Source: Maylandia zebra
Taxonomy: Eukaryota > Chordata > Actinopteri > Cichliformes > Cichlidae
Reading direction: 5' to 3'
Length of the DNA: 64,000 bases
Assembly: GCF_041146795.1 (NCBI RefSeq)
Contig: NC_135177.1
Span: forward strand, 23,658,560-23,722,559
The notes under the pieces are model-generated. The model ran no database searches. It was not told the DNA's origin and saw only the letters and a program-made list of their open reading frames with translations. The position numbers and the translations under genes are program-made. Of the stretch, positions 13,701-58,220 are shown one piece after another; the first letter of the stretch is position 1, and each line of letters opens with the position of its first letter.

Positions 13701-15126
13701 CATTTACAACTTCCATAGGATAAATATCATCCCTACACTTTTAATCAAATACACTTGATTAACTGATCCTAATCAAACATTCAGTCAATCTCACAAACTT
13801 CCAAGAAGTGGATGTCCCAGCAAATCCCCCCCCCCCCCAGGTGCAAGACTCAAGAACTCTGAGAACTACATCTCAGGCTCTACTGGCCTCAGGATGTTAA
13901 ATGTTAAAGTTCACGGCTGTAAAATCTGAAAAACACTGAACAAGTATGGCTTGTTTAGAAGAGCTGCCAGGAGAAAGAGTCTTCCCTCTAAAAAGAACAT
14001 GACAACTCAGCTTATGAATGAAGAACCAAGGTTCAGTCAGACTTCAACCTGACTGAAAGGCTGTTTCATGTTAAATGGCTGCTGTGAAAAATGGCTGTCT
14101 GCAGACTGTGTGCAAGTTATTATTAAGCCAAGAAACAAGAGTTGTCGTAGCTATATTCCTCCAGTGTTTTTATTGTCATTTGGGCGGCCTGACTCTTTAG
14201 AAGTTAGACAAGCACATCATGCACACTAAACAATCAATCCAATCCATTGAAAGCTTTTCTGTATTTTGTAAAGAAAGGCCTGTGATGTTTCATATTGTTC
14301 TTAAAAAGCCACAGACTGGACCTTCGTGCTCTGATCTGCTGTTTCATTTTATATTTGCAGACCTTGTTCAGAGCATGAGACAGGCAGAGCTCTGCGACTG
14401 GGCTCTGGACCCGGCGGTCTTCACTTCCCTCTGCGACTCTCTGAACCGCTTCTTCACTCAGAAAGGCATGATCACCCCTGGGAATAACTCCCCTGTAGCC
14501 CCTGGTGCCCCTCAACCCTTACCAGCCTTTAACTTCAACCCACCCCCTACCCTCTCCAGCCTCACTCAGCCCTCACCCCTTCCCTACTCTTCAATAGCTC
14601 CCCCTGCCAATGGTGCACAACCACCGCGGCGGGCTCTGCCCATGCAGGGACCAGGTCTTCAGAGACCACAGCTAACACAGCCTGCAAGCACAGCCGGTGA
14701 GACCTGGACTTAAAAACATATTTTCTTCTTTACTTTTATGAAATAAGACAGGATGGGTTCATATTTTCCCCAAGCCTGTTTTAGAATAATCTTCCAGATC
14801 AGTGACATGTTTCTGCTATGAGAGCTATTTATGGAAACACTGAATTAAAAACAGTTTTTCTCCTAAGATTGAACAGAAATTGTTATAAATCTGGACAGCA
14901 GGTTTTGTCTGTTTAAAAGAAGTTGTTTAGATAGAAAAATATGATTTGACATTCTCTCACTTCCTTCTTGTTATATACTCAGTCCATGTGTCCTCTTTTT
15001 TTTTCCTTCTCAGCTGGGATTCATCCTCAGCCGATGACGCCACGACAGCGTCCCCCACTAAAGAATCTGCACAGCAACAGTGAGGAGATCCAGGACGACT
15101 TTGACTGGGACTCTCTGATTGTTTGA
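10731..15126 (+). CDS. foxj2: forkhead transcription factor, FOXJ2/FOXJ3 group
   Basis: Nine coding exons: 10731-11054, 11167-11241, 11341-11433, 12012-12170, 12259-12760, 12850-13011, 13104-13205, 14361-14696 and 15014-15126. They join in phase to 621 residues. The N-terminal [16 protein letters not shown] is a FOXJ2/J3 signature. The forkhead domain covers about residues 62-142 ([54 protein letters not shown]). Helix 3, which contacts DNA, is intact. A long Pro/Ser-rich stretch follows, then the conserved FOXJ2/J3 block [20 protein letters not shown] and [20 protein letters not shown]. The C-terminal end is [14 protein letters not shown]. The protein is expected to be a nuclear activator binding RTAAAYA-type sites. 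The part before the forkhead is a Gly/Glu/Lys/Arg-rich spacer I do not recognise, and the first half of the forkhead has drifted (AIAAAPERK). I prefer foxj2 over foxj3 because mfap5 and necap1 lie nearby. Confidence 0.85.
13745..14010 (+). mobile_element. Tc1-like transposon remnant in foxj2-like intron
   Basis: Short blocks match a widespread fish Tc1-like element: a terminal-side ACACTTGATTAACTGATC (about 13750), GAAGTGGATGTCCCAGCAAA (about 13806-13825), GAACAAGTATGGCTTGTTT (about 13939) and CCAGGAGAAAGAGTCTTCCC (about 13967). The order is as in the transposase gene, with large internal losses. A poly-C run sits at about 13828. Recognition is from memory; borders are approximate. Confidence 0.6.
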
Positions 15127-16094
15127 CCCTCTCGCTCTGTGTGGAAACCCCAAAATGTTTTTGAGAAAATACTCTACTCTTTGCAGAAGCTGTCTCACTC
15201 TGTTGTACATGTTTAAAGCTTCTCTGACAGCAAGTATGGGATCGAGTTTGTCACATATGACTGAATGCCCCCCGAGGTTCAAATAGTTATTTTTTCAATA
15301 TTACTCAAATTCATATGCTGTAATACTGTTTGTTTAGCATATCCTATGTAGGTAGTTGGGAGGCTGGTGTCTATTGGATTGTAAAACACAGAACTGTGTA
15401 AAGGTCTTGAGCCTCACCTCATCTTTTTATGTTTTTCTTCCAAGGAGCCAGGCTTTTGTAAAAGTGCTCCTGAGCAGTAGTTCTCCAAGATTTCTGAAGG
15501 TCTTTCAGAGCTTTTCTTTGGACATTGGCTGCTTTTTTTTTGTTTTTGATAACTCGTTTTCAGCCAAGTCCTTGTACCTGACCATTTTCAGAGGAATGTT
15601 TATTTTGTTTTTGGTTTAGCTACTTAACACTGACCTTTAAATCATTAAAAAGACACCAAACTCAAGGGATGAACCAGTGTTGCCTACACATAACTTATAA
15701 AGAACTCAATTTAAGTTGCATCTTTAGGCTCTTTGTTACTTGCTGCCTGTCACAGATAGGGATGGGTATCGTTTAGGTTTTATCCGATACCAGTGCCAAA
15801 CCGGTACTTTTGAAACAGTGCCGGTGCTTAAACGGTGCTCAAACCGGTGCTTAAAGAATGGAGAACACAAAATTGGTCCGAAAACCTCTCATGTTCAGCT
15901 GTTTTTTTGTAAAAAGATATCAATGTTAGCCTTTTCTACAGCTATGGGGCCTATATGCTATCACTCTTGGTTGGAAGCAGTGCTTAAACAATGGAAAAAA
16001 CACAAACTTTGTCCAAAACCTCTCATGTTTAGCTGTTTTCCACTTTTTCTTTGGTTATTTTAGCCTTTTTGGCCAGGGTGAAGGGAGTATCTGC

Positions 16095-17742
16095 CAGAGG
16101 TGTGGACTCGAGTCACATGACTTGGACTCGAGTCAGACTCAAGTCATTAATTTTATGACTTTAGACTTGACTTGAAAAAATGTTCTAAGACTTGTGACTT
16201 GACTTGGACTTTTACACCAATGACTTGGGACTTGAATTGGACTTGAACCGGTTTACTTGAAAAGACTTGATATTTTACCCCAAATATAAAATTTAACATG
16301 CATATTATATAGAGATTGAAAATGTGACGTCATTCACGGATAGAACCGCAAAGGATTCTGGGAACTCGTGGCAAGCGGTACTAGCGCACGCAGGCTTTCA
16401 ATTAAAATCAGTTATACAGCGATAAAAAGAAACACAAAAATGTCAAGAAGCTGTTGTATTATTAACTGCAATAGCCGGTCGCATGACAGCCACGGGAAGC
16501 CGACGGGTAAAGAGATCGGTTGTTATCGGATTATGTCGTTGAAGAGAAATTGTTCGAGCCATGTTTCCGAAGTAACAAAGAGGCGACTGGATTGCAGCCA
16601 TTCAAAGACAAAATATAACGTCCCAGAACCCTCCAGCTCACATGTTAGTCTGCTCCAAGCATTTACACAAACGTCAGTCTGCTGTTGTAGTTAATACGTC
16701 ATTTTTCTTAACATAATTGGTGATATAGGTTACAAGCAAGTCTGGCGCTGAACAGAAATGGTCGCGCTATGCTCCTTTGTTTATTGTGCATAAATAGTGA
16801 ATTGTCCTGACACAATATTGCGTTTCGCTTCTGTTATTATGGTACATTGACAAAAACATATACTTTTATTCACAGGATAAAACAGTTGTTTTGTATCACT
16901 AATTGCACAGTAGGATTACAGCATACAATATTATTGTCACTGCTACATTTCTGTGATGCTACCAAAAATTATTTCCACTGCTAATTAATTACCATTGAGC
17001 TCAAAGGTCCTATTAATAAACGGTTAACGAATGTGTATTTATGACGACGATTTGTGAGACTGGTAAACTTATGATACGTACGATGGTCTTTACTTTCCCA
17101 TCCGTCGGTAAACTGTACCTGGGCTTGTTGCAGTGACCGGAAGTTGCTAAACTTCATGAGTGTATGCACTCACTCCAAGAAGCGTATGATTATAAATATG
17201 CATATAAATATGCTAAGATGAGATAGCTGACTTCATCTAACTTGCAAATGTTGTCCAGGCTACGTTGGTGATGCAGTTTTTTTTAATGTGTATGATATTT
17301 TTGTCATGTGATTTTAAAGCTGGTCCTACAAGCGCATCCAAAAATAACATGCAGCTTATCTCAGAACTGTCGGTGAAAATTATTCTTGGAGCTAGGTTTA
17401 ATTGAGCTGCATTTTAAAGAGGTGCAATTTCACAATTTGTGTATATTTTCTAAGTTCACTATTTTGTCATGTGTTGAGAAAAACACAGATTTAAAAATTA
17501 CATGGTCTAATATTTACATTTAGCATAAAACTGCAACATGCTTTTTTTCGTTTTTTTTTAAAGACTCGAAATGACTTGAAATTCAAAATTTCAGACTTGT
17601 GACTTTACTTGGACTTTTACACCAGTGACTTGAGACTCGACTCTGACTTGCCTGACATTACTTGAGACTTGACTTGAGACTTGAGGATAAAGACTTGAGA
17701 CTTACTTGAGACTTGCAAAACAATGACTTGGTCCCACCTCTG
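16095..17742 (+). mobile_element. P-like DNA transposon C with THAP-domain relic, inside B
   Basis: It starts CAGAGGTGTGGACTCGAGTC and ends GACTTGGTCCCACCTCTG, an inverted pair, with a perfect 8-bp duplication GTATCTGC at 16087-16094 and 17743-17750. Both subterminal zones are packed with GACTTG/GACTYG hexamers in varying spacing, likely old transposase-binding arrays. A THAP finger is visible on the plus strand: MSRSCCIINCNSRS from 16440, then after a change of frame DWIAAIQRQN and MLVCSKHL (16579-16690). This supplies the C-x3-C ... C-x2-H ligands and the invariant Trp. THAP plus 8-bp duplication points to the P superfamily. Kolobok also has THAP but makes TTAA duplications; hAT makes 8 bp but uses BED fingers. 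No DDE core remains, so C is non-autonomous. Confidence 0.82.
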
Positions 17743-18104
17743 GTATCTGCCATCAAAAAAGAGGACAGCCGCATGTAGCTATGATGATGTTTGCTAGTTC
17801 ACCTTACATGCATTAATGTAATAACGTGGTTAACCTACTCAGCGTAAATTACACACGAACAACATTAAGCTACTCACGCAGAGAAGAACGGCTGCTGCTG
17901 CATCATCATCCGTCATCATTTCTGCTACACTGGCAGGGCTAGGGGCCAGGACTCTCCTCTTCGGGTTTTTGGGGGATGTTGCTAACTCCGGGTCCGATAA
18001 CAGGCACCACACCCGCAGTAGATGTGCTCGGTGTGAGGTCTGGCAGCAAGCTATCAAATACGGCACATTTCTCGGCTTTTAAAAAAAACGCTATGCGTCG
18101 CCAG

Positions 18105-18240
18105 GTGTCTCATCAGATTTGAGGTGTTACCTCCTTTGACAGTATCACAGTATCAGCTTAAAGCACTTGTTGCAGGCTGCTGAGTTTGCATCTTTTGCTG
18201 TGAAGTACAGCCAGACTTTTGACCGCTTCGCCTTGGGCAT
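18105..18240 (-). pseudogene. BED zinc-finger relic of hAT transposase in element B
   Basis: The minus strand reads MPKAKRSKVWLYFTAKDANS, then CNKC, then, in another frame, KGGNTSNLMRHL. This is the Cys-Cys and His part of the BED finger found at the N-terminus of hAT transposases. Further minus-strand sequence (LLPDLTPSTSTAG, about 17980-18040) looks like the linker that follows. The RNase H-like core is absent. Confidence 0.75.
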
Positions 18241-18615
18241 TTTTAATCTGTAGCTCTGCTCTAAAATAACGTACGTACCTGGGCCCGCCTACTATCCTTG
18301 ACATCTCAGGGGGGGAAAAAGCACCGAAATGTGCGCTGCTTTTCGGTCTGGTTACTACTAGTACCGTTTATGTCAGAACTGGTGCCATCATGGCACCGAA
18401 TACCGGTACCCATCCCTAGTCACAGAGCTATTTTACTACTTGGCATGGTGTGTTCTTAAAGAAATCTGAGGAAACTGGACAAAAGAAAGAAGTAGCAAGC
18501 CTAAAAAATGGTGGATGATGGATGGTATCTGAAAAGTCATATCCTTAAAAAGCAGGCGGAAATCCAGCAAAGACCTGACACAGAGATACATGACTTCAGC
18601 TGATCCATCCAAGAA

Positions 18616-19006
18616 TAGGGATGGGTATGGTTTAGGTTTTATCCGATACCAGTACCAAACCGGTACTTTTGAAACGCCGGTGCTTAAACCAGTGCTTAAA
18701 GAATGGAGAACACACACTTTGTCCAAAAACCTCTCATGTTCAGCTGTTTTTTTGTAAAAAGATAACAATGTTAGCCTTTTCTGCAGCTATAGGGGATTTA
18801 TGGCATCACTCTTGGCTGGAAGCAGTGCTTAAACAATGGAAAAAACAAACTTTGTCCAAAAACCTCTCATGTTTAACTGTTTTCCACTTTTTCTTTGGTC
18901 ATTTTAGCCTTTTTGGCCAGGGTGAAGGGAGTATCTGCCATCAAACAAGAAGACAGCCGCATGTAACTATGACGGTGTTTGCTAGTTCACCTTACATGCA
19001 TTAATG
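18616..19006 (-). mobile_element. second, truncated copy of hAT element B, lacking element C
   Basis: Starting TAGGGATGGGTATGG, it repeats the left part of the first copy almost base for base. It runs straight through ...GGGAGTATCTGCCATCAAAC at about 18929-18948, where the first copy carries element C between two copies of GTATCTGC. It stops near 19006 (TTACATGCATTAATG); the right end is missing. It has the same orientation as the first copy and begins about 200 bases after it. Confidence 0.85.
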
Positions 19007-56254: not shown

Positions 56255-58220
56255 ATGGGCAGCCTCCCAGTGGTCCTGCTCCTCTGCAGTTTCCAGGGTA
56301 ACGTTACCAAACAGGACACACAAATCAACTTGTTTAATTATGGTTGAGTCGCTGTGTGTTTGCTTTTATGCTGCAAACCTCTCCCCTCATGCGGTTTCTG
56401 TTCCACAGCACTCACGGTTATAGCCCAAACTCAGCCAACTGGTAAAGCCCTTTTACTTTTGATAATGATGACAGACGTCTGCTACTCTTTGAGTTTTTCT
56501 CATTTATTCTTTTTCTTTTCTTTCCTCACTTCTAGAAGCACCTGGGAACGCCATACCAACCGGTGAGTATCTCCACTTTTAGGACTTTTGTGATTTACAC
56601 AATATCAACATGACATGTGTCTCCGCTGTTATCACTCTGCAGAATGTAGGGAGGAGACGTATCCTTGCACCAGGATGTACTCAGTTCACAAGCCCATCAA
56701 GAGATGTATTGGTAGTCTTTGTCTCTACAGGTGATCTGCAAATCCTCTACAACACACTTTTAATTAGTCTTTTTTCCAGAAAAAGGACTTACTTATTTTT
56801 AAAAACTGAGCAGTAAAGGTCTTACTTTTTCTTCAGTGTTTTAACGACAGGTGGTGAAAGAAAACAAGGAAATGGTCTTGAGCAACAGTTCTCCAGGCTT
56901 TTCTTTGGACATTTTGGCTGTTTTTTCACACATTTTCAGTCCAGTCCTCGCACCTGATCATTTTTAGAGGACTTTTATTTTTTGGTTGTTAAGCCACTTA
57001 ACGCCGACCCATGAGTCATTCAATCATAAAAAGGCACCTGACTCAAGGGATGAACCACTATTGTGTCTAAACATAACAGACAGCTCAGCAAAGCAGCTTT
57101 AAATTGCATCTTTAGTCACTTTGTTACCAGCAGCCTGTCACGAAGACACATAATTTGTTGCCATTTCTGTAATTTAATCTATGCCAAAGATAACTTCGTT
57201 TGACGGGCATAAAATAGTATTTTTGCACCGACAGGGTGATTCCCAAAGAGGTATTCCCTGAAAATGACAGCTTCATCTTTGCATCAGTACAAGTAGTAAA
57301 GAGCTTTGAATGTCCTTCAAGAAGCCTGGAAAACTACTACTGAAGACTACTTAAATGATATGTTAACAGACACAGCTAGAAGTATAAAGTACTACAAATA
57401 GCGTCCTTAATTATTAGTACAATATTTGTGTAACAGTATTGAGCTCACAAGACTTTCATTACTGAACACAGTTACCCTGTCAGCCTGTATCAGTATATCC
57501 ATCCTCATAATGTTCATGTTTTACCCCGGTGCTCTCGCAGCCTCCCTCGTGTTTATGTGATCAACAAAGAGATCTGTGTGAGGACAGTGTGCCGTGAGGA
57601 TGAGTATCTGAAAGGTGAATTAGTCTTAATGTATACACAGGTGACAAATTAAAGGAAAAGACAACACTGGAGCAGCTTCATTGCTCCTTGGCAGTGATTC
57701 TCTAAAACAAATAACCAAAAAAATATAATTTGTTCCCTCAGTTGATGATGCCAAAGAGTGCAGTTTAACAAGTTGGTACATTCATCAGCTTGATTTTGAG
57801 GGTAAAAACCAAATAAATCGCCAATAATAATAATAATAATAATAATATATTTGCTGATGCTGTAACGCTCACTTTTATTTTATTAAAATTAAACTTGGAT
57901 CTTTTGTTTAATAGATGAAGAATGATAAAAATGACAGCAGGTATGAACCACACCACAGCAGGTCAGAGCCACAGGATCCCTCCACTGCAGGGCTCAGGTT
58001 TCGCCTTTCATTTGTCACCTGTCTGTATAAAGGAACAGTGATCTTACAGTCCATGAAAATATGCATACAAATAAATAACCCTTTTCCCCCCTTTCTTTAC
58101 ATTACAGCTGAATTATGCAGAGAGTTGTCTGGGTGGCCCAGACGTATCCAGAGGTCATCCAATAGCAAACGTTGTCGCAATCGTCGTGGCAACCCCCAAA
58201 CCTGGGCAAACAAAGCCTGA
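56255..58220 (+). CDS. mfap5: microfibril-associated glycoprotein, MFAP5/MAGP-2 type, short form
   Basis: Six coding exons: 56255-56297, 56409-56441, 56536-56562, 56643-56730, 57541-57614 and 58108-58220, joining in phase to 125 residues (human MFAP5 about 173). The start MGSLPVVLLLCSFQALTVIA is a signal peptide, so the protein should be secreted. The defining MAGP domain follows: ECREETYPCTRMYSVHKPIK, then RCIGSLCLYS, then VYVINKEICVRTVCREDEYL, then AELCREL. These match the Cys-rich matrix-binding domain shared by MFAP2 and MFAP5, which anchors the protein to fibrillin microfibrils. The C-terminus (WPRRIQRSSNSKRCRNRRGN) is very basic, like the tail of MFAP5. The segment between signal peptide and domain is only about 16 residues, and I see no RGD there, unlike mammalian MFAP5. 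MFAP2 is less likely, because it would end in a second Cys-rich block. Three mini-exons of 27-43 coding bases make automated prediction error-prone. Confidence 0.88.
56866..57350. repeat. uninterrupted copy of dispersed repeat A in mfap5 intron
   Basis: The blocks TTTTCTTTGGACATTTTGGC, ACTCAAGGGATGAACCAC, GCATCTTTAGTCACTTTGTT and CAGCAGCCTGTCAC correspond to those at 15395-15756. The copy continues past the position where the 15-kb copy is interrupted by element B. It lies in the intron between 56730 and 57541. Confidence 0.65.

Follow-up and report, generated by a model that had tools for sequence, protein, structure and literature searches.

Architecture of the locus

The window (the whole stretch of 64,000 nt that was analysed) contains a nest of transposable elements in which one repeat copy, A1, is split by an element B1 that is itself split by an element C. 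The features are listed in Table 1. A second B copy (B2) lies directly against the A1 right part, which brings the number of pieces in the nest to at least four; a second A copy (A2) is present further along the window. B1 starts at 15757 with the terminal inverted repeat (TIR) TAGGGATGGGTA and carries its reverse complement at 18407-18418, with GTCACAGA on both sides. C reads CAGAGGTG from 16095 and CACCTCTG up to 17742, with GTATCTGC on both sides, and after in silico excision of C together with one GTATCTGC the length of B1 is 1006 bp. Just upstream of A1 the last exon of a gene appears by eye to end (window 15010-15126; a frame end of 10 residues followed by a stop), and the nest may be situated in or near a 3' untranslated region.

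Table 1. Features of the nest and of the second A copy (positions in the 64,000-nt window)
Feature	Positions	Strand	Remarks
A1 left part	15395..15756	+	5' portion of an old element, probably Tc1-like; the final 8 bases are the left B1 target duplication
Left B1 target duplication GTCACAGA	15749..15756	+	
B1, non-autonomous hAT-like element	15757..18418	+	TIRs and duplication
Left C target duplication GTATCTGC	16087..16094	+	
C, non-autonomous P-like element, 1648 bp	16095..17742	+	Family ends and duplications
THAP-domain exon, broken remnant within C	16440..16716	+	
Right C target duplication GTATCTGC	17743..17750	+	
BED zinc-finger exon remnant within B1	18145..18288	-	
Right B1 target duplication GTCACAGA	18419..18426	+	
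A1 right part	18427..18615	+	A-family stretch; in relatives further downstream, past the piece missing from A1
B2, another B copy of which the 5' part remains, 3' end broken	18616..19006	+	No interruption of the C target (18931-18938)
A2, second A copy in the window	56897..57264	+	Uninterrupted left of the B1 target; has the piece missing from A1

The B family

With the 5'-most 340 bases of B as query, 1968 first-look candidates were obtained, 40 of which were scored (39 besides the window's own copy). The best-scoring 20 of the 39 listed besides the window were retrieved, and these are thus not a random sample. At 15 of the 20 places the copy is at least 700 bp long and exact at both ends, with lengths of 798-1047 bp; its 8-bp target duplication is identical in 10 cases and has 1 or 2 mismatches in the remaining 5. 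The TIRs of B1 are TAGGGATGGGTA / TACCCATCCCTA, and for hAT elements the available text of PMC3517528 gives a TIR length of 5-27 bp.

On the minus strand near its 3' end, the window's B1 matches the BED zinc finger PF02892 at 0.0056, which is below the cut-off, and two other copies (L018 and L009) match it above the cut-off, at 4.4e-6 and 1e-5 respectively. BED zinc fingers are associated with hAT-type transposases. Given the 8-bp duplications (exact in the window), the short TIRs and the zinc finger detected in two members, B fits a non-autonomous hAT-like element as judged from its sequence, in agreement with the assignment made in the earlier note.

Three B copies (L026, L027 and L028) lie within about 1 Mb on one contig and have the 8-bp duplication ATTACTAA in common; they differ in length, as after segmental duplication, and their duplications may represent one event.

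The C family

For C, 40 of 1706 first-look candidates were scored, of which 36 (window included) cover C 1-1648 and 4 are partial. The other 35 full-cover candidates have an identity of 92-96%. In the 10 best copies besides the window, which were checked individually, a perfect 8-bp duplication was found in all 10; CAGAG stands at both ends of the window copy and of all 10 checked copies. An accessible portion of PMC2820524 gives the terminus of the P superfamily as 5'-YARNG.

The THAP remnant in the window is weak: the piece 16576-16716 matches PF05485 at 6.3e-4 (below the cut-off) and the piece 16440-16575 has no Pfam match. The equivalent stretch of another copy, L054, matches PF05485 above the cut-off at 2.3e-8, and a comparison with the PDB gives human THAP2 at 0.0062. 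With the THAP domain above the cut-off in one family member, the CAGAG end and the 8-bp duplications, C fits a non-autonomous P-like element.

Insertion of C into B1

The exact ends of C and the presence of GTATCTGC on both sides bear out the claim that B is split by a P-like element with an 8-bp duplication. B2 had been put forward as the uninterrupted control for this event, and it is a sound one: B1 without C aligns to B2 (18616-19006) with 90% identity (E 1e-156 and 4e-158 in two alignments), the joined halves match continuously across the site, and B2 has a single GTATCTGC, at 18931, at the C target site.

The same state is observed elsewhere in the genome. Within three edits, the C target is uninterrupted in 20 of the 20 retrieved B copies (the best 20 of 39), two of which read GCATCTGC in place of GTATCTGC, and no exact match of 18 bases to the beginning of C is present in any of them. 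A genome pattern search for the B-C 5' junction, the only junction queried, gave 6 matches at up to 2 mismatches. B followed by C occurs solely in the window copy; among the other matches, L054 is a C copy located elsewhere, and no further B-C composites were found with this 5' junction pattern. As the 5' junction was found in the window alone, a single insertion of C into this B copy is probable, with no sign that the composite has spread.

The repeat flanking B1

The left part of A1 gave 2923 first-look candidates, of which 40 were scored (39 besides the window). These 39 copies show 69-76% identity to A1, and 27 of them start at window 15384-15411, so the left end of A1 is approximate. At the other side, the final few bases of the A1 right part before B2 are not clearly A.

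According to the earlier note, A2 runs through the B target and both insertions thus have a control in the window. This holds for C (through B2) but only one-sidedly for B. The left side of A2 is uninterrupted (72% identity to A1, E 3e-32) and A-family sequence continues past the site to about 57264, but a counterpart of the A1 right flank (18427-18615) is not detectable there: the score against the right side of A2 is reached by 181 of 200 shuffles, and by 426 of 500 when the test was repeated. With its right side unlike the A1 right flank, A2 (56866-57350 in the earlier note) was rejected as a full empty-site witness, and by itself it is no proof that both flanks of B1 come from one repeat.

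The proposal that the flanking halves match one continuous repeat is nevertheless substantiated by genomic copies besides A2. We compared the right part of A1 with 12 copies, namely 9 retrieved copies, L029 and L034 (from the 200 kb around the window) and A2. In six of these (L056, L057, L059, L060, L061 and L029) it beats all 300 shuffles; in the others the number of shuffles out of 300 that reach the score is 10 (L034), 12 (L063), 20 (L055), 66 (L058), 223 (L062) and 260 (A2). With the joined A1 flanks as query, 757 first-look candidates were obtained, 40 of which were scored, resulting in 42 rows (40 outside the window). Fourteen of these 40 rows end exactly at the final base of GTCACA, three are purely right-half, one (L084) runs well across the site (query 4-320 of 326) and another crosses it by nine bases.

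BLAST matches to both parts of A1 were obtained for L060, L084, L085, L086 and L087. From these two-sided copies it follows that, at the level of sequence similarity, both B1 flanks belong to one repeat family. When 15 retrieved A copies were compared to the window by BLAST, 14 showed a left-part match, ending exactly at 15754 in eight, at 15756 in L063, at 15757 in L034 and earlier in four. Right-part matches start at 18438-18449 in L060, L061 and L084-L087; that of L057 is short and lies further in. No more of A was found past the broken end of B2 (window 19007-55893, E 1e-3, same 15 copies); these copies mostly end 400-500 bases past the site, so that the far end of A falls outside this comparison. 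Two more short A matches (L041 and L047) lie near the window and were left out of the comparisons.

As to its nature, A is probably a decayed old Tc1-like transposon rather than an anonymous repeat, as indicated by weak domain matches: a piece of L063 matches DDE_3 at 3.4e-4 and a piece of L062 matches HTH_SB (Sleeping Beauty HTH) at 0.025, both below the cut-off. Pfam returned nothing in four of the six A pieces searched, including both A1 peptide pieces. By eye the right part of A1 resembles the N-terminal region of a Tc1-type transposase.

A probable deletion in A1 before B1

Alignment with its relatives indicates that A1 is without a piece that many of them, A2 included, carry. L060 has 112 extra bases at the site compared to A1, and the halves of L085 and L086 are separated by about 126 and 136 bases more than those of A1, so that about 110-135 bases are extra in three of the five two-sided witnesses, against 63 in L087 and 19 in L084. 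Past the missing piece the right part reads AAAGAGCTATT in L060 and similarly in other copies. The duplication GTCACAGA consists of GTCACA, the end of the A1 left part, followed by GA, with which the right part begins past the missing piece. Given that GTCACAGA, present on both sides of B1, spans the deletion junction, A1 probably lost about 110-135 bp at the later insertion site of B1 before B1 arrived. The order proposed in the earlier note stands, but it misses this step, a deletion at the very place where B was inserted. The left edge of the deletion varies between family copies, as L063 and L034 still match A1 through GA.

Alternatively, the deletion could be later than B1 and the match of GA on both sides a coincidence, which we regard as unlikely. 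The left GTCACAGA would then have arisen from the usual GTCACAAA by one substitution, after which a later deletion beside the right end of B1 happened to leave a second GTCACAGA. Several family copies indeed read GTCACAAA, one base off GTCACAGA, and L034 reads GTCACTGA. Such a scenario nonetheless needs a substitution as well as a deletion that stops at exactly the right base, whereas the eight bases are identical in both flanks and 8 of the 14 left-part matches stop before GA. A deletion preceding B1 is therefore preferred. It might also be argued that the loss in A1 and the insertion of B1 were one linked event, for instance insertion into a break under repair; this would replace two independent accidents at the same base by a single one, and we give it little credence.

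L084 is likewise without most of the piece missing from A1 (19 bases are left), which reflects either an independent loss or a shorter subfamily. In L057, the last bases of the A1 right part show a short match to a later A-family stretch; this hints at a second deletion in A1, the match being too short to use.

The second B copy

B2 starts directly past the right part of A1, and hence sits either within this A copy or where that copy is broken off; the 3' end of B2 is lost at 19006. B1 and B2 have 26 differences over 390 aligned positions. Measured over this span against the majority sequence of 14 copies, B1 has 12 differences in 406 positions and B2 has 16 in 391.

These counts also bear on the idea that B1 and B2 result from local duplication of one B, or that B2 is a by-product of rearrangement near B1. 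The two copies have the same orientation and are 197 bp apart, and as B2 is without its 3' end its target duplication is not checkable. The divergence between B1 and B2 nonetheless exceeds that of either copy from the 14-copy majority, which fits two separate copies and leaves duplication or rearrangement a very improbable origin. B2 would accordingly be an insertion separate from B1.

Order of the insertions

The resulting order is A, the probable deletion, B1 and then C, with B2 undated relative to B1. The empty C sites, the two-sided A copies and the divergences are in agreement with the previously suggested succession of A, B and C. The Kimura two-parameter (K2P) distance to the 14-copy majority is 0.033 for B1 and 0.042 for B2, both of which are lower bounds, as the copies were chosen for closeness to B1 and the divergences are consequently biased low. 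C differs from its copy L054 by a K2P distance of 0.031 over 1473 bases, or about half of this per lineage if shared equally. Together with the 69-76% identity of the A copies, these distances give an order of divergence that agrees with the order of nesting.

We consider it highly probable that the whole locus results from the chance accumulation of three unrelated DNA transposons of the cut-and-paste type. The old Tc1-like A would have been the first to land and then decayed, after which A1 would have lost a segment of about 110-135 bp that by eye lies close to the beginning of the transposase region. A hAT transposase acting in trans would then have inserted B1 across the deletion junction, copying the 8 bp GTCACAGA. 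A second B copy (B2) would have inserted into this A or where it was broken off, the 3' part of B2 being lost later. In the last step a P/THAP9-like transposase, again in trans, would have inserted C into B1 and copied the 8 bp GTATCTGC. That the nest is an assembly artefact is scarcely conceivable: all three layers are dispersed repeats, but the exact 8-bp duplications at both levels, the exact ends, the lack of any N in the window and the ordinary family divergence all speak against it.

At this locus three DNA transposon families of one fish genome can thus be placed cleanly in relative order, with A as the oldest, followed by the hAT-like B and the P-like C. Having several nested states, it is also a ready presence/absence marker for related species. 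It is a clear yet ordinary transposon pile-up, and leaves the view of transposon function unchanged.

Relation to known elements and methods

Insertion of one repeat into another has been used to study or order the activity of repeats in TinT (PMC3014933), interruption analysis (PMC2517846) and REANNOTATE (PMC2672092). As far as the accessible descriptions go, these are genome-wide methods, whereas the nest in the window is one locus to which the same logic applies.

In the text available for Izanagi, found in the medaka dmrt1bY promoter (PMC2820524), this fish P element is described as non-autonomous; its THAP domain is degenerate and its duplications are 8 bp long, and C is alike in these respects. 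It is also part of a nested insertion of which the parts were dated by divergence, similar to the nest in the window; there, however, it is a Rex1 LINE that lies within Izanagi, whereas here the P-like C is the guest. The 27-bp TIR given for Izanagi in this text is unlike the CAGAGGTG end of C, and for C no effect on a gene is claimed. Pdre2 of zebrafish, according to an excerpt of PMC10983969, is a P-like fish element with 8-bp target duplications, as is C; its TIR is CATACCTGTCAAC (against CAGAGGTG in C), and C is without a transposase body. Among the papers listed in literature searches on the families, four contain the string CAGAGGTG and none of those listed for CAGAGGTGGG contains that string, which by itself is no proof that the families are unpublished.

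Mar, a hAT MITE, is according to PMC3517528 a short non-autonomous element with 8-bp duplications that is thought to be derived by internal deletion, and B is alike. Mar fits the Buster target pattern nnnTAnnn according to the same paper, whereas the duplications of B do not uniformly do so.

Two minor observations concern the structure and distribution of the elements. The right end of C contains (window 17594-17730) a degenerate, GACTTG-rich tandem array with a unit of 33 bases, and the left end contains units related to this array. At L004 1501-3341 (equal to the L011 place, and one of the 20 retrieved B places) two B copies of like orientation are separated by 188 bp, compared to 197 bp for the pair in the window, with a spacer unrelated to the window spacer (score 22); such close B pairs may reflect local hopping.
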